A stretch of DNA of 28,584 nt from a virus: positions 1 to 28,584 of IMG/VR virus record IMGVR_UViG_3300027741_000211, one strand, 5' to 3'. Position 1 is the first letter of the stretch. Every line of letters starts with the position of its first letter. A program made the position numbers and the translations under genes. The notes beneath the pieces were generated by a model. The model ran no database searches, was not told the origin of the DNA, and saw only the letters and a list, made by a program, of their open reading frames with translations. Below are positions 9,011 to 24,101 of the stretch, in pieces.

Positions 9011-9235
9011 ATGCAAGACTTTACACACGAAGAAATAGAGCAAATATGGAATTCAATCAGCCACTATGTGCCTGATAGACAGAAGGTGGACTGTGCTGTA
9101 GACTATATCAAAACATTAGTAGACATCGGTGTTCCTACCAAAGTAATCAAATCCTCTGGGGAGTATGATGAAAAATTAGAAGCAGCTATCGAGAGCGTGT
9201 TTGACGAAGAAGAAGAAGACGGATACGACGAATAA
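9011..9235 (+). CDS. Small acidic protein of unknown function
   Basis: A 74-residue protein, helical (HEEIEQIWNSISHYVPDR) with a strongly acidic C-terminus (VFDEEEEDGYDE). It starts 2 nt after the previous stop and its stop overlaps the next start (TAATG), so translation is probably coupled to the UvsY-like gene. The central part (CAVDYIKTLVDIGVPTKVIK) may be a helical hairpin. The acid tail could mimic DNA or contact gp32 or UvsX, but this is speculation. Confidence 0.65.
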   Translation: MQDFTHEEIEQIWNSISHYVPDRQKVDCAVDYIKTLVDIGVPTKVIKSSGEYDEKLEAAIESVFDEEEEDGYDE

Positions 9236-9693
9236 TGAGCTGGTATACTAAAGTAAGTCAGGATATCGGATTAATACCTGATTGTATAAAATATTTTGAT
9301 CAAGAATTAGAAGCAGCACGCAAAGAAATATATATATTTGGAAACTTAGAAAAATCTGCAGCATCGCTACCAGGAATAGTAGAACATCGATTTAATCAAT
9401 TGCAAGAAATAGAAGCAATATTAGAGTATCTTAATATAGAGAATAGAAGATTAAGATCAAGAACGTTTAAAAAATTTTTAGAAAATTATAACAGAGCATT
9501 AACATCTAGAGATGCCGACAAATATGTGGATGGAGAATCCGATGTGGTTGATATGGAAAAAATAATCAATGAATTTGCTTTATTAAGAAATAAATGGTTA
9601 GGTATAACCAAAGGTTTAGATCAAAAACAATGGCAGTTAACTAACATAGTTAAACTCAGAGTGGCTGGTATGGAAGATGCCACAATCAGATAG
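9235..9693 (+). CDS. uvsY: UvsY-like recombination mediator
   Basis: A 152-residue, largely helical protein next to uvsX, about the length of T4 UvsY (137). In T4 UvsY is a ring that displaces gp32 and loads UvsX. Visible similarities to T4 UvsY are in pattern rather than identity: an Arg-rich helix followed by a tyrosine and Asp-rich loop (RTFKKFLENYNRALTSRDAD), a DMEKIINEFALLRNKW segment, and a final helix ending KLRVAGMEDATIR. Its ATG overlaps the preceding stop and its 3' end overlaps the next gene by 17 nt. Gene order adds most of the confidence. Confidence 0.65.
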   Translation: MSWYTKVSQDIGLIPDCIKYFDQELEAARKEIYIFGNLEKSAASLPGIVEHRFNQLQEIEAILEYLNIENRRLRSRTFKKFLENYNRALTSRDADKYVDGESDVVDMEKIINEFALLRNKWLGITKGLDQKQWQLTNIVKLRVAGMEDATIR

Positions 9694-10270
9694 AATAATA
9701 CTCACAGACGTTGACGGTGTACTATTGGAATGGGAAGACCATTTTAGTAAATGGATGGCGACCAAAGGATTCCCGCAACTAGAAAACACAGATCACGAGT
9801 ATGATATGAGCATTCGATACGGCATACATAGAGATCTTTCGAGAGAACTAATTAGAGAATTTAATAAGAGTGCATGGATGAGTACACAATCACCTATGCC
9901 TGATGCACAAACTTGGGTAAAATTATTGCATGCAGAAGGTTGGACATTCATACCTATAACATCACAAACATCAGATATACCGGCACAGGAATTAAGAAAA
10001 AAAAGATTAGCAGAACTGTTTGGCGATACTGTATTCTCAAATTTTTTTATATTAGAAACAGGAGATCATAAAGATGCAGCACTGGCAGAATTCCACGGCA
10101 CAAATTTATGGTGGGTGGAAGACAAATGGACCAATGCTAAAAAAGGTTTAGAATACGGTTTGAGGCCATTATTGTATAATCATGATTACAACCAGAGTTT
10201 AGAAGATGAAAATATCATACGAGTAAATAACTGGCAACACATACATAAAATTATACATGGAAAAAAATAA
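9677..10270 (+). CDS. HAD-superfamily phosphatase
   Basis: A 197-residue hydrolase. HAD motif I is LTDVDGVL (nucleophile D11, acid/base D13); motif II is ITSQT (T95 or S96) after a hydrophobic strand; K132 in GDHKD may be the motif III lysine; the acidic motif IV is VEDKWTN (E148, D149). The cap region (about 20-85) is rich in aromatic residues. Substrate is not visible; nucleotidase-like or sugar/polyol phosphatase roles are both possible. It overlaps the UvsY-like gene and the following kinase fusion, so it links the recombination block to the carbohydrate region. A tryptophan-rich segment LWWVEDKW is distinctive. Confidence 0.82.
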   Translation: MPQSDRIILTDVDGVLLEWEDHFSKWMATKGFPQLENTDHEYDMSIRYGIHRDLSRELIREFNKSAWMSTQSPMPDAQTWVKLLHAEGWTFIPITSQTSDIPAQELRKKRLAELFGDTVFSNFFILETGDHKDAALAEFHGTNLWWVEDKWTNAKKGLEYGLRPLLYNHDYNQSLEDENIIRVNNWQHIHKIIHGKK

Positions 10271-11036
10271 AAAAATATTAGTAATGGGATTACCAGGATC
10301 GGGTAAAAGTTATCTCTCTGATAAACTAGCGACCTTACTAGGTGCTGTGTGGTTAAATGCGGATCGAGTAAGAACAGAAGCCAACGATTGGGATTTTTCA
10401 CCCGAGGGCAGAACAAGACAAGCAGAACGGATGAAACACCTAGCACAAGAAGGATTAGACCGCGGCAAACACGTGATTGCAGACTTTGTTTGTCCTACAG
10501 AAAAAACTAGACAGGACTTTGATGCCGATTATACTGTGTGGGTAGACACCATTAAAGAAGGACGTTTTGAAGATACTAATAAGATGTTTGTACCTCCTGC
10601 AGAATATGATTTTCGAGTGCCTACACAAAATGCCGAATTGTGGGCTATAAGAATAGCAGATGAACTACAAGAATATGTTTGGGATAATCGTCGACCCACT
10701 GCTCAGATGTTGGGCAGATGGCAACCATGGCACGAAGGACATCAAGCTCTATTTGAAGAGATCGTTAAAAAAACAGGACAAGTAAATATACAGGTGAGAG
10801 ATGTACAGGGTGTGGGAGATAATCCTTTTGATTTTGAAACAGTTAAGAAGAATATAGAACAAGCATTACAATTTTATAAAAATAGAATTCAAGTCACTCT
10901 AGTGCCAAATATAACTAATATTTGTTATGGTAGAGGAGTTGGTTATAAAATAGAAGAAATTATTTTGTCAGAAAATATACAAAAAATCTCTGCTACGGAT
11001 ATTAGAAAAAAAATGAGAGATGAAGGAAAATTATGA
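10257..11036 (+). CDS. APS kinase-like / nucleotidylyltransferase fusion
   Basis: A 259-residue two-domain protein. Residues 1-140 are a P-loop kinase: Walker A GLPGSGKS (11-18), LNADRVRTEANDWDFS (33-48) in the place of the substrate loop of adenylylsulfate kinases, then VIADFVCPTEKTR (73-85) and a VWVDT strand (94-98). Residues about 150-259 are an HxGH-superfamily nucleotidylyltransferase: GRWQPWHEGH (153-162) and the C-terminal ISATDIR (244-250). The domain order recalls animal PAPS synthase (kinase then sulfurylase), but the second domain is only about 110 residues, so it is a minimal transferase of unknown acceptor. It overlaps the HAD gene by 14 nt and the next glycosyltransferase by 4 nt (ATGA). 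Confidence 0.75.
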   Translation: MEKNKKILVMGLPGSGKSYLSDKLATLLGAVWLNADRVRTEANDWDFSPEGRTRQAERMKHLAQEGLDRGKHVIADFVCPTEKTRQDFDADYTVWVDTIKEGRFEDTNKMFVPPAEYDFRVPTQNAELWAIRIADELQEYVWDNRRPTAQMLGRWQPWHEGHQALFEEIVKKTGQVNIQVRDVQGVGDNPFDFETVKKNIEQALQFYKNRIQVTLVPNITNICYGRGVGYKIEEIILSENIQKISATDIRKKMRDEGKL

Positions 11037-11721: not shown

Positions 11722-12174
11722 ATGCTATTAATTTCACACCGCGGTAATATTTCCGGACCTCGACCAAAACTAGAGAACACAATTGCTTACATAGAACAGG
11801 CAATTGATCAAGGGTTTGACGTTGAGATAGATGTTTGTAAATGGGATGGAGAATATTTCTATCTAGGGCATGACGAGCCCGGAGAGGCCGTGTCGCCTAG
11901 CTGGTTTTATTTTAAACCTGTATGGGCACATGCCAAAGACCACACAGCATTGAACGAATTGGTCAAAAGAGGAATACACTGTTTCTGGCACAACACCGAT
12001 AGATACACATTAACCAGCGAAGGATATATCTGGGCGCACCCAGGAGAACCGGGTGGAGAAAATTGTATCTGTGTTCATCCAGAACAACGTGAAGACTGGA
12101 AAGAATTTGCAGGAATATGCTCGGACAATGTAGAACATTACAAGGAACTATATGATAAAATTAATAATTCTTGA
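11722..12174 (+). CDS. Short GDPD-like phosphodiesterase
   Basis: A 150-residue protein with the active-site signature of glycerophosphodiester phosphodiesterases: ISHRGN (H6, R7), LENT (E18, N19), the metal pair VEIDV (E35, D37) and LGHDEP (H50). Family members are usually 230-300 residue TIM barrels; this one ends after roughly half to two thirds of that, with an odd WHNTDRYT segment near residue 89. It may be a minimal active form or have lost activity. In full enzymes the reaction releases glycerol-3-phosphate from glycerophosphodiesters. It overlaps the next gene by 23 nt. Confidence 0.75.
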   Translation: MLLISHRGNISGPRPKLENTIAYIEQAIDQGFDVEIDVCKWDGEYFYLGHDEPGEAVSPSWFYFKPVWAHAKDHTALNELVKRGIHCFWHNTDRYTLTSEGYIWAHPGEPGGENCICVHPEQREDWKEFAGICSDNVEHYKELYDKINNS

Positions 12175-12688
12175 TGTAGATGGTGTGTTAACCGATGGTA
12201 AAAAATATTACGATCGTCCTGGAAATGTTGTGATGAAAACATTCTGTGATAAGGATTGGACAGCAATTAAAAGATTTAAAGCATTAGGAATTCACATTAT
12301 TTTTCTTACAGGAGATCCTTTTAATGAAGCAATCGCAAAAAATAGAAATATAGAAGTTATTGTAAATAGAAAAAACGGTAAACACAAAGATAAAGGTGAT
12401 TACGTAGAAGATATTTGTAAAAAATATAAAATAAACACAAATGAAATTGTTTTTGTAGGAGATGACATTTTTGATATAGGTATAATGAATAAAGTAAAAT
12501 ATAGTTACTGTCCAGGAGATGCACCAAAAGAGGTACAAGAAATTGCTAATGTATTAGACAAAAACGGAGGACAAAATTGTGTAATGTCGTTGTTCGACCA
12601 ATTAAAAGAAGAAAAATTATTACCTAACTTTAAACTACAAGAACATATTGATAATGTATATAAATTAGATATTAAGGAAAAATTTTAA
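12152..12688 (+). CDS. KdsC-like HAD sugar phosphatase
   Basis: A 178-residue C0-type HAD phosphatase (no large cap), close to KdsC length. Motif I is LDVDGVLTDG (D8, D10), motif II FLTGD (T53), a lysine-rich segment 75-82 supplies motif III, and motif IV is FVGDDIFDIGIMN (D104, D105). YCPGDAPKEVQEIA and a GG near 139-140 match the KdsC/GmhB-type C-terminal half. KdsC removes phosphate from KDO-8-phosphate; related enzymes dephosphorylate other sugar phosphates. Here the next two genes supply kinase, nucleotidyltransferase and isomerase, so removal of the distal phosphate from a sugar 1,x-bisphosphate is the likely step. An AAGGAA lies about 6 nt before the ATG. The stop overlaps the next start (TAATG). 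Confidence 0.88.
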   Translation: MIKLIILDVDGVLTDGKKYYDRPGNVVMKTFCDKDWTAIKRFKALGIHIIFLTGDPFNEAIAKNRNIEVIVNRKNGKHKDKGDYVEDICKKYKINTNEIVFVGDDIFDIGIMNKVKYSYCPGDAPKEVQEIANVLDKNGGQNCVMSLFDQLKEEKLLPNFKLQEHIDNVYKLDIKEKF

Positions 12689-13365
12689 TGTATGATATAA
12701 CGTTATACGGACATCTAACAGTTGACAGAATATTTGACGGCTTTGTTGAAAAGAAGTCTTTGGGTGCAATGGCTAACATGTGGAGAACGTTTAAAAAAAT
12801 TTCTCCAAATCTAAATATTGGTATGTGTCCCACATCAATAGGAGAAGCAATAATATACATTGATAGAGATTCATCAACACGTTTTTCAAATTTTGTTAAT
12901 GATATTAAAACACAAACACCAATAATAAAAGAATCAAAAATATCTCATGCACTTTATATTAATAAATTAAACGATACCACTTGGATTAAAAATCTTAAAG
13001 GTACTGTAAGTGCGGACGTATGTGCAGGCAGTAAAGTAGATGTAGAACTTTTAAAAAATATAGATTATCTTTTTATTTCCGACGAAGATGCTTTTGCTGA
13101 TGTAAAAACAATGGCAAAATTAACAAGAGGTTATGTAATTTTACATTCTAATAAATCTAGTATAATATCTAATGGTCAGAAAGAATCAACATATATACTT
13201 GATGAGAACCTATATATACTAAAAAGTAATGTATTAGGAGCAGGAGATATGTTCGCAAGTATTTTTTTAAAATGTATTCTAGAAGGAAAATCTATAGAAC
13301 AATGCCAACAGGAAGCACACGAATCAACAAGTAAATTAATAAAATTAGAAAATGAAAAAATATAA
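12688..13365 (+). CDS. PfkB/ribokinase-family sugar kinase
   Basis: A 225-residue kinase, shorter than most PfkB proteins (about 300). The N-terminal YGHLTVDRI (7-15) is the typical first strand and substrate-contacting segment. DYLFISDEDA (126-135) matches the N-x-x-E region where the family binds metal and phosphate. GAGD (184-187) with following MFASIFLKCILEG is the C-terminal PfkB signature, D187 being the expected catalytic base. The family includes the HldE kinase domain, which phosphorylates heptose-7-phosphate at C1. The gene is coupled by TAATG to the phosphatase and overlaps the nucleotidyltransferase fusion by 14 nt. Base composition is visibly more A+T-rich than the replication genes. 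Confidence 0.85.
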   Translation: MYDITLYGHLTVDRIFDGFVEKKSLGAMANMWRTFKKISPNLNIGMCPTSIGEAIIYIDRDSSTRFSNFVNDIKTQTPIIKESKISHALYINKLNDTTWIKNLKGTVSADVCAGSKVDVELLKNIDYLFISDEDAFADVKTMAKLTRGYVILHSNKSSIISNGQKESTYILDENLYILKSNVLGAGDMFASIFLKCILEGKSIEQCQQEAHESTSKLIKLENEKI

Positions 13366-14506
13366 TTTATTATTACCGATAGCAGGCAAAGCACAAAGAT
13401 TCATTGATGCTGGTTATACAATGCCAAAGTCACTGATTCTTGCAGGAAATAAACATGTTATTGATTGGGCAGTAGAATCTGTAAATATAGAAAATTGTAA
13501 CTTAATATTCATTGTAAGAATAGATCACATATATAATTTTTCAATTGATAAAATTTTAAAAAAAAAATTTGGAGAAGATATTTCTATAGTAATTGTAGAC
13601 AAAGTTACTAAAGGAGCTCTTGAGACTTGCACGCTAGCAGAACAACATATAGATAACAACCTACCATTAATCATTTATACTCCAGACGTTTATTTTAATC
13701 CAGTTTTTAATCCAGAATCAATAACAGATGATGCCGACGGATTTCTTTTAACTTTTACTGCTAATAGTCCAGATCATAGTTATTCTGAATATGATGCCGA
13801 CGGTATTGTAGCTAAAGTTGTTGAAAAAGAAGTTATATCAACAGAAGCCAACGTTGGTTTATATCATTTCCGCACAGGTAAAATATTTTTAAAATATGCT
13901 AAAGAAGCAATTGATAAAAACATGTTGATTAAAAATGAATTTTATATTGCTCCTATATATAATCTTTTGATTAGAGATGGTTTAAAAATAAAAGCTGCTA
14001 ACACAGAAAAAATGCACGTTTTAGGTACACCTACACAGTTTGAGTTTTTTGTAGATAAAGTTATCAATAGGTTCAGCAGTAAACCTATTGCATTAGGTAG
14101 TGATCATTCTGGATATGAGCTAAAAGAACAGGCTAAAGTGGTTTTATCAGAATTAGGAATTGAATATATAGATGTTGGCACATACACAGACAAAGCCTGC
14201 GATTATGCTGACTATGTTTTACAAGTTACTAATTTAATAAACAAAAATAATTGTAGTCATGGTATTAGTTTTTGTAGATCAGGGCAAGGAGCAAATATAT
14301 GCGCTAACAAAGTAAAAGGAATAATATCTGGGCTGTGTTTTGACGAATATACCATTGAATATGCTGTTAAACACAATTGTTGTAATCATTTTGCAATACC
14401 ATCTAAGTATGTAGATAAAGAAAAATTTAAATTAATGATCAATGTGCTTTTAAAAACATCTTTTGATGGGGGTAGACATTTTACAAGATTATTTAAATTG
14501 TTATGA
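13352..14506 (+). CDS. Sugar nucleotidyltransferase-RpiB isomerase fusion
   Basis: A 384-residue bifunctional protein. Residues 1-240 are a RmlA/GlmU-type nucleotidyltransferase: LLLPIAGKAQRF (6-17) at the nucleotide loop, MPKSLI with K26, the metal aspartate D112 in IIYTPDVYF, and VGLYHF (168-173). Residues 245-384 are a ribose-5-phosphate isomerase B/LacAB-type domain: GSDHSGYELK (249-258), CRSGQGANICANK with catalytic-type C308, and HN at 341-342. The spacing from C308 to H341 is 33, as I recall for Cys66-His99 of E. coli RpiB. The usual CGTG loop is CRSG, so substrate preference may differ. The preceding genes give a kinase and phosphatase. It overlaps the next gene by ATGA. Confidence 0.85.
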   Translation: MKKYNLLLPIAGKAQRFIDAGYTMPKSLILAGNKHVIDWAVESVNIENCNLIFIVRIDHIYNFSIDKILKKKFGEDISIVIVDKVTKGALETCTLAEQHIDNNLPLIIYTPDVYFNPVFNPESITDDADGFLLTFTANSPDHSYSEYDADGIVAKVVEKEVISTEANVGLYHFRTGKIFLKYAKEAIDKNMLIKNEFYIAPIYNLLIRDGLKIKAANTEKMHVLGTPTQFEFFVDKVINRFSSKPIALGSDHSGYELKEQAKVVLSELGIEYIDVGTYTDKACDYADYVLQVTNLINKNNCSHGISFCRSGQGANICANKVKGIISGLCFDEYTIEYAVKHNCCNHFAIPSKYVDKEKFKLMINVLLKTSFDGGRHFTRLFKLL

Positions 14507-15225
14507 CCATAGCAGTATGCGTTTCAGGAATATCTAGCAGAGTACCCGAATATAAAAAAGTTATAGAATTACAAAAAAAAGTATTTCCTTATGAATTCTT
14601 TTTCCAACAATGGAAAGGTTATCCCAAGCCCGATTTTGAGAATTGTCTTTTTACGCAAGAACCCACGTGGGATTATCATGTTATTACAGAAGCAAAAGTA
14701 AAACCAGAATGTAAAATATATGAAAGATATATAGGACCAAGAGGAAAAATAAAACGTAAAGGATTAGGATCACAATTTAGATATTCTGCAAATCAAATTA
14801 TTTCACATGCACAACTAGTAGATAGTCTTCCAGCAGAATATACACATATAATTAAATGTAGGTTTGATACATTAGTATCAACAAAAGTAAATTTTCAAAA
14901 ATATATTGACATGCTGTTGGATGGATGGAATATAGGTTTTTATACAAGTGGTAAAAATAACCCAACCCCAGAACACACATTAATAGAATATGATCACACA
15001 GGACCTAGATGTAAATGGCGTTTGTTTGATCATCTATTATTTCATCCTAGAGAAAGATTAAAAAATGTTTTTGAAATGAAAGAAAAAAAAGAATTACTTG
15101 GAGCAGAATGGGGGTGGTATCAATTGCTAGTACATCAGTGGGGGGATTTAAAATATAAAAATATAAGTGGTGGAGAGTCTTTAGTTAAATGTACGCAACA
15201 TCCGTTACAATGGGATAGCTTTTAA
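14503..15225 (+). CDS. Putative glycosyltransferase, tandem copy A
   Basis: A 240-residue protein with a Rossmann-like start (MTIAVCVSGISSRVPEYKK) and a central IIKCRFDTLVST with R-x-D at 120-122, followed by a conserved WGWYQLL (about 204-210) and a C-terminal PLQWDSF. The R-x-D strand context resembles WavE-type and other poorly characterised glycan-synthesis proteins, so a glycosyltransferase role is likely but not proven. The next gene is a clear paralogue. It starts by ATGA overlap with the nucleotidyltransferase-RpiB fusion, which suggests it may use that enzyme's activated sugar. Confidence 0.6.
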   Translation: MTIAVCVSGISSRVPEYKKVIELQKKVFPYEFFFQQWKGYPKPDFENCLFTQEPTWDYHVITEAKVKPECKIYERYIGPRGKIKRKGLGSQFRYSANQIISHAQLVDSLPAEYTHIIKCRFDTLVSTKVNFQKYIDMLLDGWNIGFYTSGKNNPTPEHTLIEYDHTGPRCKWRLFDHLLFHPRERLKNVFEMKEKKELLGAEWGWYQLLVHQWGDLKYKNISGGESLVKCTQHPLQWDSF

Positions 15226-15266
15226 AATAATAATTATTAAATTAAAAAAGATAGGATATAAAAATA

Positions 15267-15992
15267 ATGACAATAGCAGTATGCGTGAGTGGAATATCAA
15301 GCCTTGTTCCTGAATATAAAAAAGTATTAGAACAAGCGAAGAAGGTATTTCCCTATGATTTTTTCTACCAACAATGGGATGGTTTTCCCAAGCCCGAAGT
15401 AGATAATTGTTTATATGTACCAGAACCTACATGGGATTATCATGTAGTAAGAGATGTCAAAATAAAACCCAATTGTGATATATATCTTCGCAGCGTTGCA
15501 AAAATAAAACGTAATTTAGAAAAATTTAAACAATTTCAACATTCTGCTAATCAGCAGCTAGGACATTATTATCTAGTAGAGTCCTTGCCAGAAAAATACA
15601 CAAAAATTATTAGAATGAGATTTGATTCTATTGTTTCGACCAAAATAGACTATGAAAAATATCTTAAAATGTTGGATGAAAATCATACAGTAGGATGGGG
15701 TTCTAAACTTGGCAAAGATTGTCCTGGACCGGGCACAGACAAAGACGTTGAAATAAGAAACAATAACGGAATTAGATGCCGTTGGCAAGTGTATGATCAA
15801 CTTATATTTCATAACAGATCGCGATTAAAAAATGTTTTAGAATTAAAAAAACAACAACAGCTTAATGGCAGCGAGTGGGGATGGTATCAAATACTACATC
15901 ATCAATGGGGAGATTTAAAATATTGTAATATACTAGGAGGAGTCTCGTTAGTGAAAGCCACACAACAACCATTACAATGGGACAAATTTTAA
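15267..15992 (+). CDS. Putative glycosyltransferase, tandem copy B
   Basis: A 241-residue paralogue of the gene just upstream: the two share MTIAVCVSGISS, F-x-QQW, EPTWDYHV, IIxxRFDxxVSTK, RCxWxxxDxLxFHxRxRLKNV, EWGWYQ and PLQWDxF. R-F-D is at 118-120. The 41-nt gap holds an ATAGGAT ribosome site. Clear divergence between copies (basic loop at 76-90, middle loop at about 150) argues for an old duplication with possible split in sugar or acceptor. The 3' end faces a minus-strand gene only 10 nt away. Confidence 0.6.
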   Translation: MTIAVCVSGISSLVPEYKKVLEQAKKVFPYDFFYQQWDGFPKPEVDNCLYVPEPTWDYHVVRDVKIKPNCDIYLRSVAKIKRNLEKFKQFQHSANQQLGHYYLVESLPEKYTKIIRMRFDSIVSTKIDYEKYLKMLDENHTVGWGSKLGKDCPGPGTDKDVEIRNNNGIRCRWQVYDQLIFHNRSRLKNVLELKKQQQLNGSEWGWYQILHHQWGDLKYCNILGGVSLVKATQQPLQWDKF

Positions 15993-16002
15993 AATTTTTT
16001 AA

Positions 16003-16815
16003 TTATAATATTTTAATGTCTTTTAAAATACTGACAGCCGCACCATTGGCAAATTCCAGAGGAGTAAATTGTTGATATGCTAAAGAATATAACCACTGGG
16101 TAGGATCAATATAAAATGGATCTTCTATTTCGGATAGGCTTCCAGATGCCATTGGCCAAGCAAAACTTTTTGGATCGCTAAAAACTGGCACACCTTCTAA
16201 TGTTGCTTCTATTGCGCTGATACTACAACTAGTCACACATGCCCATGCGTTCTGTAACTCTTGTTCTATAGGTACATCAGCCACAGCAGGACCAGATGTA
16301 CCAAACTTTCTAGGTTTTTCTCTTATCTTGATAGGTCGATCGGTATATTTTTTTATTTCTTTTATAGTGTCTTCTAACCAGTTAGTTTTTTTAAGATATA
16401 CATGTATACCCACACTGCTAGGACAAATAAGAATATATTCTCCTTGATTTGTATCTCTTGTTTTAATTTTTAAATTAAATCGATTAAATCTATCCGAAGG
16501 ACAATCTCTCCAATATCTAGCATGTATTTGTTTTTTACAAATTCTCCAATAATGATTGTCTTCTTTTAAATTATTATTATCAAATCTTCCAAAATAAGGA
16601 GTATCTGTGAACCAATAATCTAAATCTTTTTGTTCTAATTGATGTATAAGATCGATATTATTATTGACAAATCCCCAAAACATTGCTGGAGATTCTGCCG
16701 TCTTTTCTAGATTACTGTTTATTTTAACTTCTTCGGGCCAGTACTTTTTAATACCATTAAATATTTCCCAACATTTACTTTTGGTATTTTCTAAAGGTGC
16801 GTATATGTTTAACAT
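16003..16815 (-). CDS. KpsC/KpsS-like GT-B glycosyltransferase, paralogue 1
   Basis: A 270-residue minus-strand protein. The C-terminal half carries a pattern shared with three other genes of this window: a TDRPIKIR strand (158-165), ACVTSCSISAIEATLEGVPVF (split over 192-212), then SEIEDPFY, DPTQWLYSLAYQQFTPLEF and a Gly-Ala end. This resembles the donor-binding domain of Kdo transferases KpsC/KpsS and CDP-glycerol glycerophosphotransferases. The N-terminal half matches the gene at 17681 (YWFTDTPYFGR against FYFMDRPYWGE, and R-x-C/T-K motifs). No membrane segment. It lies 62 nt downstream of another minus-strand glycosyltransferase. Confidence 0.68.
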   Translation of the reverse strand: MLNIYAPLENTKSKCWEIFNGIKKYWPEEVKINSNLEKTAESPAMFWGFVNNNIDLIHQLEQKDLDYWFTDTPYFGRFDNNNLKEDNHYWRICKKQIHARYWRDCPSDRFNRFNLKIKTRDTNQGEYILICPSSVGIHVYLKKTNWLEDTIKEIKKYTDRPIKIREKPRKFGTSGPAVADVPIEQELQNAWACVTSCSISAIEATLEGVPVFSDPKSFAWPMASGSLSEIEDPFYIDPTQWLYSLAYQQFTPLEFANGAAVSILKDIKIL

Positions 16816-16877
16816 TTATATTATTTTATAGTATAATTATTAAAAGAACAACGGTAGTAAAAACCGTATTAACAACA

Positions 16878-17633
16878 TTAAATAATTTTTAAAACCGATA
16901 GATCTACTGATACTTCGGGGTATATTGTTTGTAGAACTTGCCAAATTTGTGTTCCTCTTCTGTGTTTTTTACCTCCAGCACAATGTAAAAAATAAATGTC
17001 ATTATAGTTAAATTTTTCTCCATTATTTTTATGATTCCATTGTTCACTCATATCTTCGTAAGCAACCTCGCTTTTAATAATACAATAATTTAAAAACATT
17101 CCGTCATCTATCTTGTTATCAGATAAATTTTTATAATCACTAATATAAGGTAACATCTGTTCTGAAGATGTTTTATTAAGCATGAATACTCCTGGCTGTA
17201 TACTTTTTTTTGCTATTAACTCACCCGGGATGTCAGACAACAATGGATTATTATGTGTTAACTTTTTAGCACTGTTTCCGTCGTTCAAACGAAATTTTAA
17301 ATAAGCTGCTCCTTTAAATGTTTCAAGATTATTGTATTTTTCAAATATATTTGGCGCATGTGGCAGAGCGAAAACATCACTGTCTACATATAATATTTGA
17401 TCATATTTGTCCCACCATGAGCGATCTGTCCATAGATCAAATCTTTCCCATGTTGGATGTTTAAATCCTAATTTAGGTTTGGTAATTTTAATATAATCTA
17501 TACCATGTTTTTTACAATATACTTGAAAACTATGACTAGAATACTGCTCTGCAGGACTGGCATAGAGATTATTGAAATTTGGTTGAGTATATAGTTTGGT
17601 ATCTATATAATATTGGATTATGAGATTCTTCAT
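16878..17633 (-). CDS. GT-A fold glycosyltransferase (GT8-like)
   Basis: A 251-residue minus-strand protein. The D-x-D motif is LYVDSDVFAL (D84, D86), preceded by a typical RFDLWTDRSWWDKYDQI helix-strand. The second metal-binding segment is YFLHCAGGKKH near residue 214-224. A motif GVFMLNK around 148-154 resembles the acceptor-side strand of GT8 proteins. The 62-nt gap to the next minus-strand gene holds only A/T-rich sequence. It diverges from the gene at 17681 with a 47-nt shared upstream region. Confidence 0.8.
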   Translation of the reverse strand: MKNLIIQYYIDTKLYTQPNFNNLYASPAEQYSSHSFQVYCKKHGIDYIKITKPKLGFKHPTWERFDLWTDRSWWDKYDQILYVDSDVFALPHAPNIFEKYNNLETFKGAAYLKFRLNDGNSAKKLTHNNPLLSDIPGELIAKKSIQPGVFMLNKTSSEQMLPYISDYKNLSDNKIDDGMFLNYCIIKSEVAYEDMSEQWNHKNNGEKFNYNDIYFLHCAGGKKHRRGTQIWQVLQTIYPEVSVDLSVLKII

Positions 17634-17644
17634 GGCAATCTTTA

Positions 17645-17652
17645 TATTTAAG
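17645..17652 (-). promoter_or_regulatory. Late-promoter-like motif on the minus strand
   Basis: Read on the minus strand this is CTTAAATA, identical to the motif before terminase. It ends 11 nt before the ATG of the minus-strand glycosyltransferase (17633). The rest of the divergent gap 17634-17680 is A/T-rich, and I see no clear ribosome site for the plus-strand gene at 17681. Confidence 0.3.
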
Positions 17653-17680
17653 CCGTAAAAAAATAAAATAATTAATAACG

Positions 17681-18496
17681 ATGATATATCTCAGTAAAAC
17701 CAACCGACCCGCCACAGAGAAATACATAACATGGGCGCAGCAAGGTTTACCAGGATCAAAGATTTTACCATACGATCAAGTGATACAACAACAAGATGCT
17801 GACAAAGTTGTATTAATGGGAATATTGAGAGGCACAAATATGGTGTATCAGTGGGCTCTAAAAAATAAGATTGATTTTTATTTCATGGATCGTCCTTACT
17901 GGGGAGAGAGTCGAAATAATCCTTATCTAATGAGAATAACCAAAAACAGTCATACAAAAAATTATTTAGAATCTAGACCAGATGACCGTTTTAAAAAATA
18001 TTTTCCATTTGACATAGAACCATGGAAAAAGAGTGGTCGCAAAATTGTAATATGTCCTCCTACACACAGCATGGCAGTTATGTTTGAACAAGAAGATTGG
18101 TTATCTAAAACTTTAAAAACTTTACGAGCAAATACTGATCGAGAGATAGTTGTGAGAAATAAAGGATATAATCCAGACAGCAAAATAGATGAGTTAGGTC
18201 GACTAATGCCAGGACCTAACGACAACGAAGACACAGCAACACCAATTGATTGGAATGACGCACATGCTATAGTAACATTTAATAGTAATATAACCATAGA
18301 AGCCACAGCAAGAGGCATACCTGTGTACACAGATGTTATGAATTCGTGTGCGCCTATAGCAGAGCACGATTTTTCAAAAATAGAAACACCTCGATATGCA
18401 GACAGAGAGCCTTGTTATTATTCTCTAGCATACGGACAATTCTCAGCTGAAGAAATGCAAAATGGGTGGGCATGGAGGATATTAGATGAAAGTTGA
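17681..18496 (+). CDS. KpsC/KpsS-like GT-B glycosyltransferase, paralogue 2
   Basis: A 271-residue homologue, on the opposite strand, of the protein at 16003-16815. Shared features are FYFMDRPYWGE, SRPDDRFKKYFPF, IVICPPTHSMAVMF, NTDREIVVR (151-159), HAIVTFNSNITIEATARGIPVY (split over 195-216), then KIETPRYADRE and YYSLAYGQFSAEEMQNGWAW. The N-S-x-x-x-x-E-A context followed by G-I/V-P-V is the donor-phosphate pocket of the family. The next gene overlaps by 11 nt and is a more distant member. Substrates are unknown; capsule, LPS or teichoic-type polymer transfer are all possible. Confidence 0.7.
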   Translation: MIYLSKTNRPATEKYITWAQQGLPGSKILPYDQVIQQQDADKVVLMGILRGTNMVYQWALKNKIDFYFMDRPYWGESRNNPYLMRITKNSHTKNYLESRPDDRFKKYFPFDIEPWKKSGRKIVICPPTHSMAVMFEQEDWLSKTLKTLRANTDREIVVRNKGYNPDSKIDELGRLMPGPNDNEDTATPIDWNDAHAIVTFNSNITIEATARGIPVYTDVMNSCAPIAEHDFSKIETPRYADREPCYYSLAYGQFSAEEMQNGWAWRILDES

Positions 18497-19469
18497 AATA
18501 TTTAGAAGGACAGTAAAAGATAGACGTCGAGGAGCCAGCTGGGAATTATTACAACACATGGCCGAAGGTATAAAAAAATCTGGTGACGAACCCGTGATTG
18601 TTAATGAAGCTCTCACAGGAGAGTGGCGCCAAGATGAAATGGAACCCACGGCACCAATTGGTTGTATGTTTGGTTACGGTGGTGACAAACAGATGCATCA
18701 CACCAAAGGCAGAAGGAGAGATCTTGTAGAGCGTGCCAAAAAGAAAGGTATCTATATTATCACATTTGACGGGGGTCTACTGAGCAGTTTTGGAAACACA
18801 GTGGATCATCCTAAACATCACTGGAGAGTGGCTCTATATTCTCCCATGAACAATGGAAATTTTTTATCAGATAACTCTCTGCCAGATCGTTGGGAAATGA
18901 TGAAAAGTTTATGGAATATTAAGAACGAGCCATGGAGGAAATCTAATCCAGAGGATCCAATACTGTTTGTATTACAACCTAAAGACAACTGGAGCATGAA
19001 TGAGTTAGATCCAATCGATTGGTTCAATGGAGTTTATAAAACACTGAGATCATTAACTTCTAGAAAATTTTTAGTAAGACCTCATCCTAATCATATGGCA
19101 GCAATAGCAGAAAGAGCAAAAGAATTTCCTAGTGATGTTGAGTTAGTGATAGGCCCTAAGTTTTTTTCTGGAGATAATAAAAAATTTTATAGATTCAATT
19201 TTCAAGAAGCAATTGCTAATTGTCATGCCGTGGTTACACACAATTCAACTGCCAGCACAGACAGTTGTGTGAGGGGCATACCCACATTTTGTACATCAGA
19301 TCTAGCAATATGTTGGACTGTGGCTAACAAAGACTTAACCAAAATAGAATCACCTGAATATCCTGATAGAACACAATGGTTGAATGACTTAGGATATAAA
19401 ATGTGGACCACAGAAGAAATTAAAGATGGCACAGTGTTTCGTAGATTCAAACAGAGAGTAGGATTATAA
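18486..19469 (+). CDS. KpsC/KpsS-like GT-B glycosyltransferase, paralogue 3
   Basis: A 327-residue member with a longer N-terminal half. Recognisable C-terminal blocks are FLVRPHPNHMA (about 196-206), CHAVVTHNSTASTDSCVRGIP (split over about 246-266) and KIESPEYPDRTQWLNDLGY, then WTTEEIKDG. VRPHP is the classic phosphate-contacting motif of the Kdo/glycerophosphate transferase fold. The N-terminal half (GCMFGYGG, IITFDGGLLSSFG) looks like an acceptor Rossmann domain. The start has a strong GGAGG 7 nt before the ATG, inside the previous gene. AsnB follows 1 nt downstream. Confidence 0.7.
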   Translation: MKVEIFRRTVKDRRRGASWELLQHMAEGIKKSGDEPVIVNEALTGEWRQDEMEPTAPIGCMFGYGGDKQMHHTKGRRRDLVERAKKKGIYIITFDGGLLSSFGNTVDHPKHHWRVALYSPMNNGNFLSDNSLPDRWEMMKSLWNIKNEPWRKSNPEDPILFVLQPKDNWSMNELDPIDWFNGVYKTLRSLTSRKFLVRPHPNHMAAIAERAKEFPSDVELVIGPKFFSGDNKKFYRFNFQEAIANCHAVVTHNSTASTDSCVRGIPTFCTSDLAICWTVANKDLTKIESPEYPDRTQWLNDLGYKMWTTEEIKDGTVFRRFKQRVGL

Positions 19470-19470
19470 T

Positions 19471-21189
19471 ATGTGTGGCATATATGGTATAACCAAACGA
19501 GACAGAGAATTTGTAGAAAAGTACATAAAGATTTGCGAACATCGAGGACCAGATGGACACGATATATGGAACGATGACTATGTTACTCTAGGACACAATC
19601 TTTTAAGCATAACAGATCAGCCCACAGTTTCTCATCAACCGTGGCGTACCGAGCGAGGCAACATATTAATCTATAATGGAGAGATCTTTAACTATTTTGA
19701 TCTAATAAAAAAATATACAGAATTTAAACCCAAGACCACATGTGACACAGAATTACTAGCATGGGGATTGGATCACTATGGTGAAAAATTTGTTGAGTAT
19801 ATTGATAGTATGCACGCCTTTGCTTATTATGATACTCAAACAAGACAACTGATATTAAGTCGAGACCACGCCGGAGTCAAACCTTTGTACTATGCCGAGA
19901 CAGCAGAAGGATTAATATTTGGTTCTGAAATAAAAGGCATGCTGGATCGAGTGCCTAACTCTAGAAAGATAGATCAGTTGGCAATCAGTTGTATGAGTCT
20001 CACAGGTATTAATGCCACTAGAAACACATTCTTTTCCAACATAAAACAACTGATGCCAGGAGAAACAATCATATACGACTGCACAAATAAAAGAATAAAA
20101 TCATCAGAAAGAATCTATATCACTCCTAGATCTAATTCTTCTTTTGATCCTGCAGAGTTTAGAGACAAAGTTAAAAAGACTGTGCAGATGTGCAGCATAG
20201 GACGAAGACAGATGGGGGTATTCCTCAGCGGAGGATTAGACAGCGGTGTGATTGCTTATGAGATGATGCAGCTACACGGAAACGTGAATACATTTACTAA
20301 TCGAATGAACCCTAATATTATAACAGACGAAGATCATAACAGCGATGCTGCTTGTGCAAAAATATTAGCCGAAAAAGAAAAGTTTAATCATACAGAAGTT
20401 GTGATTACTCCTGGAGATGTTATTGCAGCATGGGATAACAGTATCTACTTCATGGAGCAGCCTGTATATAATCCTAGCATGAGCATGTACTATCATACCA
20501 ATTGTAAATTATCTGAAGCAGGTACAATCATAACCATGGCAGGAGATATGGGCGATGAGATATTAGGGGGATATCCAAAGTATTGGAAGATGAAAGATGA
20601 AAAATTTAATTCGTGGAGCAGCATAATAGACAAGTGGTTGCAAAGAATAAAAAAACCACTAGTGGTAGGAGTACCAACTCTGCCAGCGCCTGTATTGAGA
20701 GACGAATTAATAAAATTATATCCTGATACTTTATGGAATCCAGCAGATCCGGTAGCATCTTATATGGCTCTTGATTGTGTGGCACAAGCACCAAACGAAT
20801 TCTTTGCTAGAAATGACAAGTATGGCATGGCAGTTGGTATGGAAGGTCGCTTTCCTTTAACCACAAAAATGTTTATGCAATACTGTCTAAACATACCAAC
20901 TAGTAATAAAATAGGAAAAGATAAACACGAGACTAAACTATTAACCAAACTTGCCTACAAAGGATTACTGCCAGATGCTATAATCAATAAAACAAAAACT
21001 GGGTGGACTGTGCCAATTGGACAGTGGTTAACTATGGGTACTAATAAAAACCTAAAAAACTTTTATATAAACAGCATGGGAGAAAAATCCACATTAAATC
21101 GAGTTACAGTGAGTCAAAAAGCAGGCAAAGCACTGGTTCCTGCATGGGTAATGCAAGACTGGATAAAAAAATATCAAATGACTTATTAA
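19471..21189 (+). CDS. asnB: Glutamine-dependent asparagine synthetase-type amidotransferase
   Basis: At 572 residues it is full length for the AsnB family. After removal of Met1 the N-terminal nucleophile is C2 (MCGIYGI). HRGPDG (24-29), the YNGEIFN loop (68-74) and D92 complete the class II glutaminase site. The synthetase domain has the PPi loop FLSGGLDSG (251-259) and a later GDMGDEILGGY. Reaction: ATP-dependent transfer of glutamine nitrogen to a carboxylate. In glycan clusters, relatives of AsnB amidate sugar uronates (for example WbpS-type proteins), so a sugar acid is at least as likely a substrate as aspartate here. It lies between glycosyltransferases. Late-type TAAATA follows its stop. 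Confidence 0.93.
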   Translation: MCGIYGITKRDREFVEKYIKICEHRGPDGHDIWNDDYVTLGHNLLSITDQPTVSHQPWRTERGNILIYNGEIFNYFDLIKKYTEFKPKTTCDTELLAWGLDHYGEKFVEYIDSMHAFAYYDTQTRQLILSRDHAGVKPLYYAETAEGLIFGSEIKGMLDRVPNSRKIDQLAISCMSLTGINATRNTFFSNIKQLMPGETIIYDCTNKRIKSSERIYITPRSNSSFDPAEFRDKVKKTVQMCSIGRRQMGVFLSGGLDSGVIAYEMMQLHGNVNTFTNRMNPNIITDEDHNSDAACAKILAEKEKFNHTEVVITPGDVIAAWDNSIYFMEQPVYNPSMSMYYHTNCKLSEAGTIITMAGDMGDEILGGYPKYWKMKDEKFNSWSSIIDKWLQRIKKPLVVGVPTLPAPVLRDELIKLYPDTLWNPADPVASYMALDCVAQAPNEFFARNDKYGMAVGMEGRFPLTTKMFMQYCLNIPTSNKIGKDKHETKLLTKLAYKGLLPDAIINKTKTGWTVPIGQWLTMGTNKNLKNFYINSMGEKSTLNRVTVSQKAGKALVPAWVMQDWIKKYQMTY

Positions 21190-21201: not shown

Positions 21202-22110
21202 ATGAAGATCAAAGTAATCACTTCGTACAAGCCAGGCACATGGGGAGAATATTCCGGCAGAGGAATACAAAGTATAGCAGACCAGTGGCCGAAAGAAGTA
21301 GATTTAATAGTTTACCTTGAAGAATCCAAGCCCGATTATGATCATCCTAGAATACAGTGGATAGACCTTAATGCTGCTGAACCAACTCTTGTTAATTTTA
21401 AAAATAAACATAAGAATGATCCCGTAGCTTGTGGAGAATTGCAAGAAATATTGGGAGGAGTTAGAAGATCTGCAGCACTAGAAAAGCAAGGAGGATTAGA
21501 TAAAAATAAAGGATCTTATCTATGGGATGCTGTTAGATTTAGCAATAAAGTTTTTTGTGTGGTTAATGCTATTAAAAATTCTAAAGAATACGATTATATT
21601 ATTTGGGTAGATGCTGATACATTTACGTTTAGACCTATCCCAATAGAATTTCTTGAGAATCTTTTACCCAAAAAAACCATGGTTACATATCTAGGCAGAG
21701 AAAGAGTCGCACTTAACGATGGAGGCAAATATCCAGAATGTGGTTTTGTCGGATATAATTTGCAACATCCTAACATACAAGAATTTATTGCAGAATGGGA
21801 AAAATTATACATCAGCGATGAACTCTTTAAATTGCTAGAATGGCATGATAGTTTTGTATTTTGGCAGTTGGTAAAACAGTTTCAAAAAAAATACAACATC
21901 TCAGTGAATGATATAGGTTATGCTAAAAATGTAAAAGGACATCATGTTTTTGTTAACAGTGAATTAGGTCTTTACATGGATCATATGAAAGGCAAAAGAA
22001 AAAAATTAGGCAGCAGTGCTAAAAACGATTTAAGACCTCCCATGAAAGATTCTCCAGCAAATATACAGGAAATTGATTATTGGAAAAAGGCTCCTCCTGT
22101 ATTAAAATGA
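21202..22110 (+). CDS. GT-A fold glycosyltransferase
   Basis: A 302-residue protein. YDYIIWVDADTFTF supplies the D-x-D (D137, D139). ECGFVGYNLQHPN (about 179-191) is the acceptor-side strand, and WHDSFVFWQLV (about 214-224) supplies a catalytic-region Asp as in GT8/GT-A families. A late MDHMKGKRKK segment (about 259-268) gives the possible third metal ligand His. N-terminal VITSYKPGTWGEYSGRG is typical of the first strand and nucleotide loop. It overlaps the next gene by ATGA. Sugar donor is unknown. Confidence 0.8.
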   Translation: MKIKVITSYKPGTWGEYSGRGIQSIADQWPKEVDLIVYLEESKPDYDHPRIQWIDLNAAEPTLVNFKNKHKNDPVACGELQEILGGVRRSAALEKQGGLDKNKGSYLWDAVRFSNKVFCVVNAIKNSKEYDYIIWVDADTFTFRPIPIEFLENLLPKKTMVTYLGRERVALNDGGKYPECGFVGYNLQHPNIQEFIAEWEKLYISDELFKLLEWHDSFVFWQLVKQFQKKYNISVNDIGYAKNVKGHHVFVNSELGLYMDHMKGKRKKLGSSAKNDLRPPMKDSPANIQEIDYWKKAPPVLK

Positions 22111-22982
22111 AAATATCTATATTTCCACAATTTGGTAGTTTAAATTCTAAACCTGTATTTGATGCGTTGATTAGACATTTAAAAGAAAAAAATGAAAAAA
22201 TATATATCAACGAGGATCGAGATTGCGATGTGGCAATAATCTGGTCTGTGTTATGGGCCGGGCGAATGGCAAAAAATTTATCAATATGGGAAAAGTTTAG
22301 AGCAAATAATAAACCAGTAGTGGTACTTGAAGTGGGAGGACTAAAGCGTAATCTTACATGGAAAATAGGAATTAATGGGATCAATAGAGATGCAGATTTT
22401 GCAAACCAGGAGTTTGATAGCAATAGATGGCCCCTTTTTAATTTAGAGATGCAACCATGGAGAAAAGACGGTGAGCACGTAATAATATGTGGACAACATG
22501 ATAATAGTCAGCAGTGGGCAGGCAAGCCGTTGATGTCAACATGGATAGTGAAACAGATTGAAGAAATTAGAAAATACACAGATAGAGAAATTATAGTAAG
22601 ACCACATCCTAGAAATCTTTTTCAAATAGATTGTAAACAATTTAAAAATGTAAAATTAATAGTGCCAAAATATGATAACAAAACCTACGATGATACAGAC
22701 TATAAAAAAATATTAAAAGATGCATGGGCAGTTGTTAATTATTCCTCTAATCCAGGTATAGAATCTGTTTTGAACGGCAAGCCTGTTTTTGTGAGCGAGT
22801 CAAGCCTGTGTTATGAAATTGGTAACAATGATCTATCAAAAATTGAAAATCCAAATATGCCGGATAGACAAAATTGGGCTAATAAATTATCTTATACAGA
22901 ATGGACCACACAAGAAATTAGAGATGGGTTGCCATGGCAAAGAATTAGAAAAAGATTGGAAGAAAAATACATCAAATCATGA
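22107..22982 (+). CDS. KpsC/KpsS-like GT-B glycosyltransferase, paralogue 4
   Basis: A 291-residue protein. The ATG at 22107 is preferred over an upstream TTG (22080) because it overlaps the previous stop as ATGA and gives a natural first strand (MKISIFPQFG). The C-terminal half has REIIVRPHPRNLF, AWAVVNYSSNPGIESVLNGKP (split), KIENPNMPDRQNWANKLSY and WTTQEIRDGLPWQRIRKRL, closest to the paralogue at 18486. The N-terminal half (CDVAIIWSVLWAGRM, VVVLEVGGLKR) is a Rossmann acceptor domain. It overlaps the next gene by 4 nt. Confidence 0.7.
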   Translation: MKISIFPQFGSLNSKPVFDALIRHLKEKNEKIYINEDRDCDVAIIWSVLWAGRMAKNLSIWEKFRANNKPVVVLEVGGLKRNLTWKIGINGINRDADFANQEFDSNRWPLFNLEMQPWRKDGEHVIICGQHDNSQQWAGKPLMSTWIVKQIEEIRKYTDREIIVRPHPRNLFQIDCKQFKNVKLIVPKYDNKTYDDTDYKKILKDAWAVVNYSSNPGIESVLNGKPVFVSESSLCYEIGNNDLSKIENPNMPDRQNWANKLSYTEWTTQEIRDGLPWQRIRKRLEEKYIKS

Positions 22983-23722
22983 AAAATATAAAATATAATC
23001 ATAATCGAGAGATACCACCTATAGAATGGCAACCATACACAGGAGAGACCGTTGTGGTAAAAACTATAATACGTGGAGGTAAAAAAATACAAGAAACCGC
23101 TTTCTATGAAGATAAAGTTAAAGCAGTGCCGCAAGGTAATGCTTACGTTATTGGTAATGGTCCGTCTAGAAAAGAGTTTGATCTTACTCTCCTTAAAAAT
23201 ACAGGACAGATATATGGATGTAACGCTCTATATAGAGATTTTGATCCTACTTTCCTATTCATGGTAGACAGTAAAATGAGCAAAGCTATTATAGATGACC
23301 ACGTTTATGAAAAATGCGTGTGTTACGCTCCTTCATTGGAAGTTAATCGTTCTGGAGGAAAATTAAATCTTATACCCAACAGTCCTCACTGGGTGTCTGG
23401 ATCTTCTGCTATGTGGACGGCATGTGTGCATGGTCATAAAAATATCTATCTTATTGGTTTTGATTTTCGAGAATATGGGCAAGGACAGCTTAATAATATC
23501 TATCAAGATACACCTTGTTATGGGGAAAGGAACAGTGATACCGTATTTGAAGGATGGCTCAGCCAGTTCCGAACATTAATAAAACAAAGACCCTATTGTC
23601 AATTTACTGTGGTGCATGATAATCCTCCAAATTTTTTGAATCATTTGCAGACAGGCACAGATTTAAAAAATACTAGATTGATGACTTATGAGGAATTTAC
23701 AAAGAAAGTCCTAAACCAATAA
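22979..23722 (+). CDS. GT42/DUF115-like putative glycan transferase
   Basis: A 247-residue protein. YVIGNGPSRKEFDLTLL (56-72) matches the nucleotide-binding start shared by GT42 sialyltransferases (Campylobacter CstI/II) and DUF115/Maf proteins, and CNALYRDFDPTFLFMVD (81-97) fits the following strand. SGSSAMWTACVHGHKNIYLIGFDF (split over 140-163) matches their S-G-x-x-x-x-x-A-x-x-x-G-x-K-x-I-Y-L-x-G-x-D-F block. I could not place the CstII catalytic histidine with confidence. Transfer of a nonulosonic acid or of another charged group is possible; function is inferred. Its 3' end overlaps the convergent SprT-like gene by 26 nt. Confidence 0.55.
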   Translation: MKNIKYNHNREIPPIEWQPYTGETVVVKTIIRGGKKIQETAFYEDKVKAVPQGNAYVIGNGPSRKEFDLTLLKNTGQIYGCNALYRDFDPTFLFMVDSKMSKAIIDDHVYEKCVCYAPSLEVNRSGGKLNLIPNSPHWVSGSSAMWTACVHGHKNIYLIGFDFREYGQGQLNNIYQDTPCYGERNSDTVFEGWLSQFRTLIKQRPYCQFTVVHDNPPNFLNHLQTGTDLKNTRLMTYEEFTKKVLNQ

Positions 23723-24101
23723 ATTTAAATCTTGGTCTAAAACTATAGAATATACTGTTGTGATTGCCACTGTCTTTTTTTAATCCCATTTGGTATAGGT
23801 GAATCATCTCATGGGCTAGTGTTTCTATAAAATCTCTTTTGGTATTATATTTTTTTAACATTTCTAACTCAAATCTGTTAGGATTTTTGTCTGGATAAGC
23901 ACACACTTGCCCCATTGCTTGCTTCAACCATTTTTTGATTATAATTTTGTCAAAATTAGGCAATTGGTTATCAAACACTGCCCCATTGATGTAACGAAAC
24001 CACAGATCTATAGCACGTCTACTGGTAAGATACGGACCCCGATTATTGAGTGTTTCCACTTGTATCTTACGTCTTAATTTTAATGCTCTTTTTCTTCTCA
24101 T
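23697..24101 (-). CDS. SprT-like zinc metallopeptidase
   Basis: A 134-residue minus-strand protein with the zincin motif AHEMIH (H97, E98, H101) and a downstream third ligand in GNHNSIF (H114), the arrangement of SprT/Spartan proteases. The N-terminal half (RAIDLWFRYINGAVFDNQLPNFDKI) matches the usual helix before the active site. Spartan degrades DNA-protein crosslinks in eukaryotes; bacterial SprT is poorly known. The N-terminus is very basic (MRRKRALKLRRK), which could bind DNA. The start has GGAG 6 nt upstream. It is convergent with the preceding gene and divergent from the uvsW unit, so it is transcribed alone. Confidence 0.85.
   Translation of the reverse strand: MRRKRALKLRRKIQVETLNNRGPYLTSRRAIDLWFRYINGAVFDNQLPNFDKIIIKKWLKQAMGQVCAYPDKNPNRFELEMLKKYNTKRDFIETLAHEMIHLYQMGLKKDSGNHNSIFYSFRPRFKFIGLGLSL

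Follow-up and report, generated by a model that had tools for sequence, protein, structure and literature searches.

Introduction

What would a phage make with a sugar kinase, a sugar-phosphate phosphatase, a nucleotidyltransferase and an aldose-ketose isomerase? The question is raised by a 28,584-nucleotide stretch of viral DNA (IMG/VR record IMGVR_UViG_3300027741_000211, positions 1 to 28,584; the whole of it is called here the window), in which three overlapping genes at 12152-14506 had been assigned, in a sequence-only reading, to a KdsC-like HAD phosphatase, a PfkB kinase and a sugar-1-phosphate nucleotidyltransferase (NTase) joined to an RpiB-type isomerase. The same reading had proposed that these enzymes turn a ketose phosphate into a nucleotide-activated sugar (NDP-sugar) through a 1,x-bisphosphate, in the manner of the heptose pathways.

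Our results show that the four enzyme families are indeed present, as judged from family matches, active-site residues and two confident structure models, and that the three open reading frames (ORFs) lie exactly where they had been placed, the end of each overlapping the start of the next. The boundaries had nevertheless been drawn too narrowly, since an overlapping upstream gene, coding for a protein that resembles glycerophosphodiester phosphodiesterases (GDPD), is also a member of the set (Table 1). We think it fairly probable, though far from certain, that this horizontally shared phage cassette makes a nucleotide-activated monosaccharide during infection, which neighbouring phage glycosyltransferases use on a glycan; the host cell surface would be the most likely site of that glycan. 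A literature search of open-access text found no described pathway with this combination of enzymes.

Table 1. Features of the cassette and of the genes that follow it (window coordinates)
Feature	Position	Strand	Evidence
GDPD-like (glycerophosphodiester phosphodiesterase / PI-PLC-like) short protein, 150 aa	11722..12174	+	HRG..EN..ExD..GHD motifs, locus linkage
KdsC-like HAD sugar-phosphate phosphatase, 178 aa	12152..12688	+	TIGR01670, PDB profiles, HAD motifs
Minimal PfkB (ribokinase-family) sugar kinase, 225 aa	12688..13365	+	PF00294, AF2 model, Foldseek, GAGD motif
Fused NTase-RpiB protein, 384 aa	13352..14506	+	Single ORF in complete RpiB-bearing relatives; AF2
GT-A-fold sugar-1-phosphate NTase domain, residues 3-235	13358..14056	+	4evw_A profile, Foldseek, invariant residues
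RpiB/LacAB-type aldose-ketose isomerase domain, residues 246-383	14087..14500	+	PF02502, TIGR00689, catalytic residues
Putative glycosyltransferase (family GTa), 240 aa, overlapping the NTase-RpiB stop codon	14503..15225	+	Family recurs near cassette
GTa-family paralogue of the preceding protein, 241 aa	15267..15992	+	Paralogy

Results

Distribution of the cassette

Scans of viral contigs gave 46 loci with the fusion protein as query and 76 with the kinase; grouping of viral contigs and isolated-phage loci at 90% PfkB identity left 35 distinct marine viral loci. The HAD, PfkB and NTase genes co-occur in this fixed order in all 35, and chance similarity is ruled out, because intact ORFs keep the order across loci that have diverged. 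The RpiB domain is found in 30 of the 35, one of the five others being truncated by a contig end. The GDPD-like gene, which shares 23 bases with the HAD gene in the window, is nearly always present (33/35; the other two are L043, at a contig end, and L118), in some loci upstream of the trio and in others downstream. Among 50,697 phage records it has 16 matches, and 16/16 of these records also hold the NTase; this gene belongs to the cassette. Two isolates, the Synechococcus phages Bellamy and SynMITS9220M01, also have the trio; its genes are entered there as phosphatase, hypothetical protein and phosphatase.

A scan of genome contigs returned only two matches, both in metagenome-assembled genome (MAG) contigs, one of which has the same size as, and matches like, a 15998-base contig listed as viral in IMG/VR. 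When a profile of the phage PfkB was run against 296 genomes of one phylum (cyanobacteria belonging to another), no cellular source was found; its sole hits were a short MAG contig, which is present among the viral contigs as well, and two partial matches, weak at 1e-8. A cellular origin of the whole cassette thus found no source within those 296 genomes, the search having covered that single phylum.

The phosphatase and the kinase

The HAD protein is nearest to the KdsC/YrbI family, yet falls outside the curated boundary of TIGR01670 (2.4e-27, with 95.8 bits where the cut-off is 106.95), and its matches to PDB profiles of KdsC/YrbI structures go down to 2e-26. HAD motifs I-IV (DxD, T/S, K and GDD) are present, D8, D10, K81, D104 and D105 being invariant in 29 sequences and T53 of the window protein being the T/S residue. 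A GmhB-type phosphatase was considered and rejected: the GmhB model PRK08942 gives 21 bits against a cut-off of 178, and the KdsC family fits far better.

The kinase matches PF00294 at 1.6e-5 with 24.9 bits, narrowly missing the gathering score of 25.8. Its AF2 model (pLDDT 92.3) finds ribokinase-family structures in Foldseek at about 1e-10, among them the ydjH ribokinase-family kinase at 6e-11. Across 35 sequences G26, N30, E133, G184, G186 and D187 are invariant, the last being the catalytic Asp of the GAGD motif.

The nucleotidyltransferase domain

NCBIfam models match this domain weakly (1e-6 to 1e-7); the 4evw_A profile does so at 2.3e-29, with a Foldseek fold match of 1e-17. AF2 models confirmed the NTase, RpiB and PfkB folds that had been assigned, the fusion protein being modelled with a pLDDT of 90.4. 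The domain has the fold, the glycine-arginine and PK signature and the metal-binding Asp (D112) of 4evw-like GT-A proteins, and residues G12, R16, P25, K26, D112, E158 and K159 are invariant; this signature holds, with few exceptions if any, in some 30 relatives. Where RmlA-type enzymes carry a second metal-binding Asp (WxDxGT), the window protein reads MHVLGTP and has no Asp, as is also the case in several bacterial relatives, such as that of L156; its absence may be a feature of this NTase subfamily.

In structure, the NTase-RpiB model is matched best by BFVD entry A0A2H4UUJ1 from Bodo saltans virus, annotated glycosyltransferase/phospholipase. Judged by its description alone, this giant-virus protein may join an NTase to a GDPD/PLC-like domain; if so, it would lend support to the pairing of NTase and GDPD.

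The isomerase domain and its transketolase alternative

The RpiB domain matches PF02502 (7.3e-37) and passes the TIGR00689 cut-off (116.9 bits against 88.3), but stays below that of TIGR01120, the ribose-5-phosphate isomerase B equivalog (104.4 against 138.65); its model superposes on T. maritima RpiB (1o1x) with a TM of 0.91. The catalytic residues D9, H10, C66, H99, N100, R133 and R137 (E. coli numbers) are retained in 29-30 of 30 phage domains. All 30 also share three swaps relative to the E. coli, C. thermocellum and T. maritima enzymes (T. maritima has N at 101): G67R and S73N in the catalytic loop and D101C beside the catalytic histidine. None of the three was seen in a small bacterial RpiB sample of one phylum, and, among the best matches with a readable motif, the CRxGQG form was found in no bacterial RpiB of that phylum, its only carrier being a viral MAG contig. 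Glutamine at position 70 was discarded as a phage signature, as it is common in bacterial RpiB (CGSGQG). Because of these phage-specific swaps the substrate may not be the ordinary one; a change of substrate is, on this sequence evidence, likely.

Among the 34 loci not cut off by a contig end, RpiB is present in 30 and a split transketolase (PF00456 + PF02779) lies directly after the NTase in 6. All four complete loci that lack RpiB carry the transketolase, and L009 and L113 have both (Fisher about 3e-4, by hand calculation, a value that overstates the association, the transketolase loci being mutually related). Both enzymes are of pentose-phosphate type, which narrows the likely entry substrate and does not fix it. 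They might alternatively have an auxiliary role in pentose-phosphate metabolism, increasing the ribose-5-phosphate available for making nucleotides, with an incidental link to the NTase; such a role would suit SynMITS9220M01, where genes for glucose-6-phosphate dehydrogenase and 6-phosphogluconate dehydrogenase lie some 5-8 kb upstream, and S-CAM9, with a transaldolase gene. However, every locus with RpiB has it joined to the NTase, as a single ORF in the complete ones, the phage catalytic loop has diverged, and the kinase, the phosphatase and the GDPD-like protein would be left without a role, so that we regard this explanation as very improbable.

The GDPD-like partner

The HRG, EN, ExD and GHD motifs are conserved in 28 sequences of the GDPD-like protein, and H6, R7, E35, D37, H50 and D51 (HRG, the ExD metal ligands and the HD catalytic His) are invariant. 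At 150 aa the protein is too short for the full-length barrel; it has no match to the GDPD Pfam family, a weak PDB profile match to GDPD 7e0v (E 0.0015), and a related cyanophage gene annotated glycerophosphoryl diester phosphodiesterase. In place of the third acidic metal ligand (ExK) it has HxK (H70, K72), and since this ligand seems to be replaced by His, its chemistry may differ from that of standard GDPD.

A nearly obligate partner of this kind would also suit an activated polyol phosphate or sugar acid (CDP-polyol-like or CMP-Kdo-like) whose phosphodiester the GDPD-like enzyme cuts or exchanges. The HAD protein is closest to the KdsC and KDN-9-P phosphatases of sugar-acid pathways, and the structures that match the NTase in fold include the phosphocholine cytidylyltransferase LicC. 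Against this, the cassette contains no Kdo or sialic-acid synthase and no KdsB-type cytidylyltransferase family, and RpiB and transketolase indicate aldose or ketose phosphates; we therefore hold a product of this type to be unlikely.

Genomic setting

The genes for a UvsY-like protein (9235-9693) and a UvsW-like helicase (25492-26961) flank a glycan island in which the cassette is found. The G+C content is 29-31% at 12-18 kb (12001-18000) and 33-39% in the rest of the window, as in a recently acquired island. The window terminase is nearest to those of large phages such as PA5oct and Phosso, whereas the isolated carriers of the cassette are cyanophages, and this terminase was not found in two contigs with near cassettes (possibly fragments). 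These differences suggest that the cassette has moved horizontally between phage lineages.

The protein of 14503-15225 is a putative glycosyltransferase and would be a candidate user of the NDP-sugar. In most loci a member of its family, GTa, or of a related one, GTb, lies no more than 7 kb from the cassette (GTa in 11/35 and GTb in 21/35, the two partly cross-matching); DUF7796 is the sole match of GTb, and the paralogue has no Pfam, NCBIfam or phage-record match. Other cassette neighbours are GT11, GT6, sulfotransferase, WavE-like and epimerase genes; AsnB and an FkbM methyltransferase are encoded within the window.

The setting bears on whether the NDP-sugar could serve hypermodification of phage DNA instead of a surface glycan. 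In RB69, an NTase-like protein and a SIS isomerase have been proposed to supply UDP-arabinose for arabinosylated hydroxymethylcytosine (PMC6024577), RB69ORF053c is a structural match of our NTase domain (rank 16, E 2.5e-9), and the window phage has T4-type recombination genes. Yet GT11, GT6, WavE, sulfotransferases and epimerases are typical of polysaccharide loci, no dCMP hydroxymethylase or DNA glucosyltransferase family was seen in the window, and in bacteria the relatives are located in glycan clusters or close to them. We accordingly give hypermodification only a slim chance.

Several further genes of the window were noted. The product of 10257-11036 has two domains, first a P-loop kinase and then one resembling nucleotidylyltransferases (phrog_10255; weak NMNAT/cytidylyltransferase matches), and its sequence is compatible with a possible bifunctional enzyme of NAD or CDP-alcohol type. 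The protein of 9677-10270 (phrog_420) has a HAD-like start, DVDGVLL, and its family (cluster 43) is also found upstream of the cassette in two other loci. Four proteins that look related (16003-16815 on the minus strand, 17681-18496, 18486-19469 and 22080-22982) share E...G(V/I/K)PVF/Y...(E)(N/D/S)P...W near the C terminus; by eye they look KpsS/glycosyltransferase-B-like, with no family match where searched. A complete glutamine-dependent asparagine-synthetase-like enzyme, of a type frequent in polysaccharide loci, is encoded at 19471-21189 (PF00733, PF13537; phrog_16728), and a small protein with an AHEMIHLYQ motif of zinc-metallopeptidase (SprT-like) type at 23697-24101 on the minus strand.

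Discussion

From the families, folds or motifs, catalytic residues, gene order and co-occurrence observed here we infer a series of reactions, and with it their order, substrate, nucleotide and end use. The RpiB domain would convert a ketose phosphate into an aldose phosphate, or the split transketolase would supply the sugar phosphate; the small PfkB kinase would phosphorylate C1 to give a 1,x-bisphosphate; the KdsC-like HAD would take off the terminal phosphate; and the NTase would join the resulting sugar-1-phosphate to a nucleotide. The GDPD-like protein would act on a phosphodiester within the same pathway. Ribose-5-phosphate is the one product common to canonical RpiB and transketolase, and since both enzymes act on pentose or heptose phosphates or on products of these, such a phosphate is our best single guess for the substrate. 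The earlier interpretation holds as regards families, catalytic residues, fixed co-occurrence and the heptose analogy, and was incomplete in leaving out the GDPD-like gene as a partner and transketolase as an alternative to RpiB.

Several points weigh against this scheme. The kinase lies below its Pfam cut-off (24.9 against 25.8 bits) and is much shorter than its solved relatives (225 against about 280-310 aa), and membership of the PfkB family does not prove phosphorylation at C1, most PfkB enzymes acting on another hydroxyl. The swaps peculiar to the phage RpiB domain, G67R and S73N in its catalytic loop together with D101C, may mean that it takes an unusual substrate. Finally, the GDPD-like partner has no place in the four steps, which suggests that they are incomplete.

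A bolder version can be offered only tentatively: the phages would have their own route to an uncommon NDP-sugar made neither by their hosts nor by known pathways, and the glycan would alter the infected cell surface. The route would use a repurposed RpiB pocket fused to the NTase, a phage-specific miniature PfkB acting as anomeric kinase and the KdsC-like phosphatase, with transketolase as an interchangeable source of input and a shortened GDPD at a new step. Should the NDP-sugar pathway be real, a compact route of this kind would be present in many marine viral contigs and at least two isolated cyanophages, under the annotations of phosphatases and hypothetical proteins, and five small proteins would give a direct handle on what the lipopolysaccharide ('LPS') islands of cyanophages make. 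The near-obligate GDPD-like partner, common to bacterial polysaccharide clusters, would then point to a glycan-precursor step missing from present schemes.

In bacteria, the NTases nearest to that of the cassette occur in glycan clusters or close to them, together with a GDPD-like gene and a HAD of the beta-phosphoglucomutase (beta-PGM) family (TIGR02009, 1e-32; L141, L142, L156-L158), and often with a cupin and a second NTase; in the Synechococcus phages B23 and S-CAM9 the NTase is fused to a HAD that looks alike, and a GDPD-like gene is beside or near it. We know of no established name for this module, which has in common with the cassette the NTase family, the GDPD-like partner and a HAD, and often includes a cupin (L142, L158, S-CAM9, B23). 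No PfkB, RpiB fusion or transketolase was seen in it, and a single mutase/phosphatase-family HAD, sometimes fused to the NTase, stands where the cassette has PfkB and the KdsC-like HAD. An enzyme of beta-PGM type would turn sugar-6-P into sugar-1-P in a single step, and these two may replace it, performing in two steps the same net conversion of sugar-x-P to sugar-1-P. Because the net step is the same and fits a 1,x-bisphosphate route, nothing speaks more strongly for the reaction order proposed here than this replacement; it is no proof, since the beta-PGM family also has members that are simple phosphatases. On this view the cassette is most readily understood as the phage version of this uncharacterised glycan-precursor module. 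An RpiB gene near an NTase on a Rhizobium plasmid was set aside; it lies beside triose-phosphate isomerase and glycerol-3-P dehydrogenase genes and looks like part of a separate catabolic operon. Tandem NTase-NTase fusions (about 525-550 aa; L003:11223-12797, L007:6995-8563, L144, L145) occur both in bacteria and in cyanophages; genes for a class II aldolase and a GDPD-like protein are close by, and together they form a second, related module.

The likeness to the ADP- and GDP-D-glycero-manno-heptose pathways (GmhA, HldA/HldE, GmhB, HldE-C or HddC) is borne out at the level of enzyme families and reaction types: isomerase, PfkB-type kinase, HAD phosphatase and nucleotidyltransferase. As had been proposed, an RpiB-like domain takes the place of GmhA and the phosphatase is KdsC-like, in agreement with the PF02502 and TIGR01670 matches; no cassette protein matches the SIS family of GmhA. 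The kinase is also other than HldA/HldE, the NTase is fused to the isomerase, and there is a GDPD-like partner besides. Strict membership is therefore rejected on the isomerase and the phosphatase; that the cassette works like a heptose-type pathway is plausible by analogy and partly supported. The lincosamide octose pathway (LmbR, LmbN, LmbP, LmbK, LmbO) likewise has a carbon-transfer enzyme, an isomerase, an anomeric kinase, a HAD phosphatase and an NTase in series, but these are a transaldolase, a GmhA-like isomerase, a GHMP kinase and a GmhB-like phosphatase.

Phage-encoded supply of an NDP-sugar is already known as an idea from the proposed UDP-arabinose module of RB69 (ORF53_52c, ORF055c), which similarly pairs a phage NTase-like protein with an aldose/ketose-phosphate isomerase (PMC6024577). 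In that phage, in contrast to the cassette described here, the isomerase is of the SIS type, the companion domains are others, and the role is in DNA modification.

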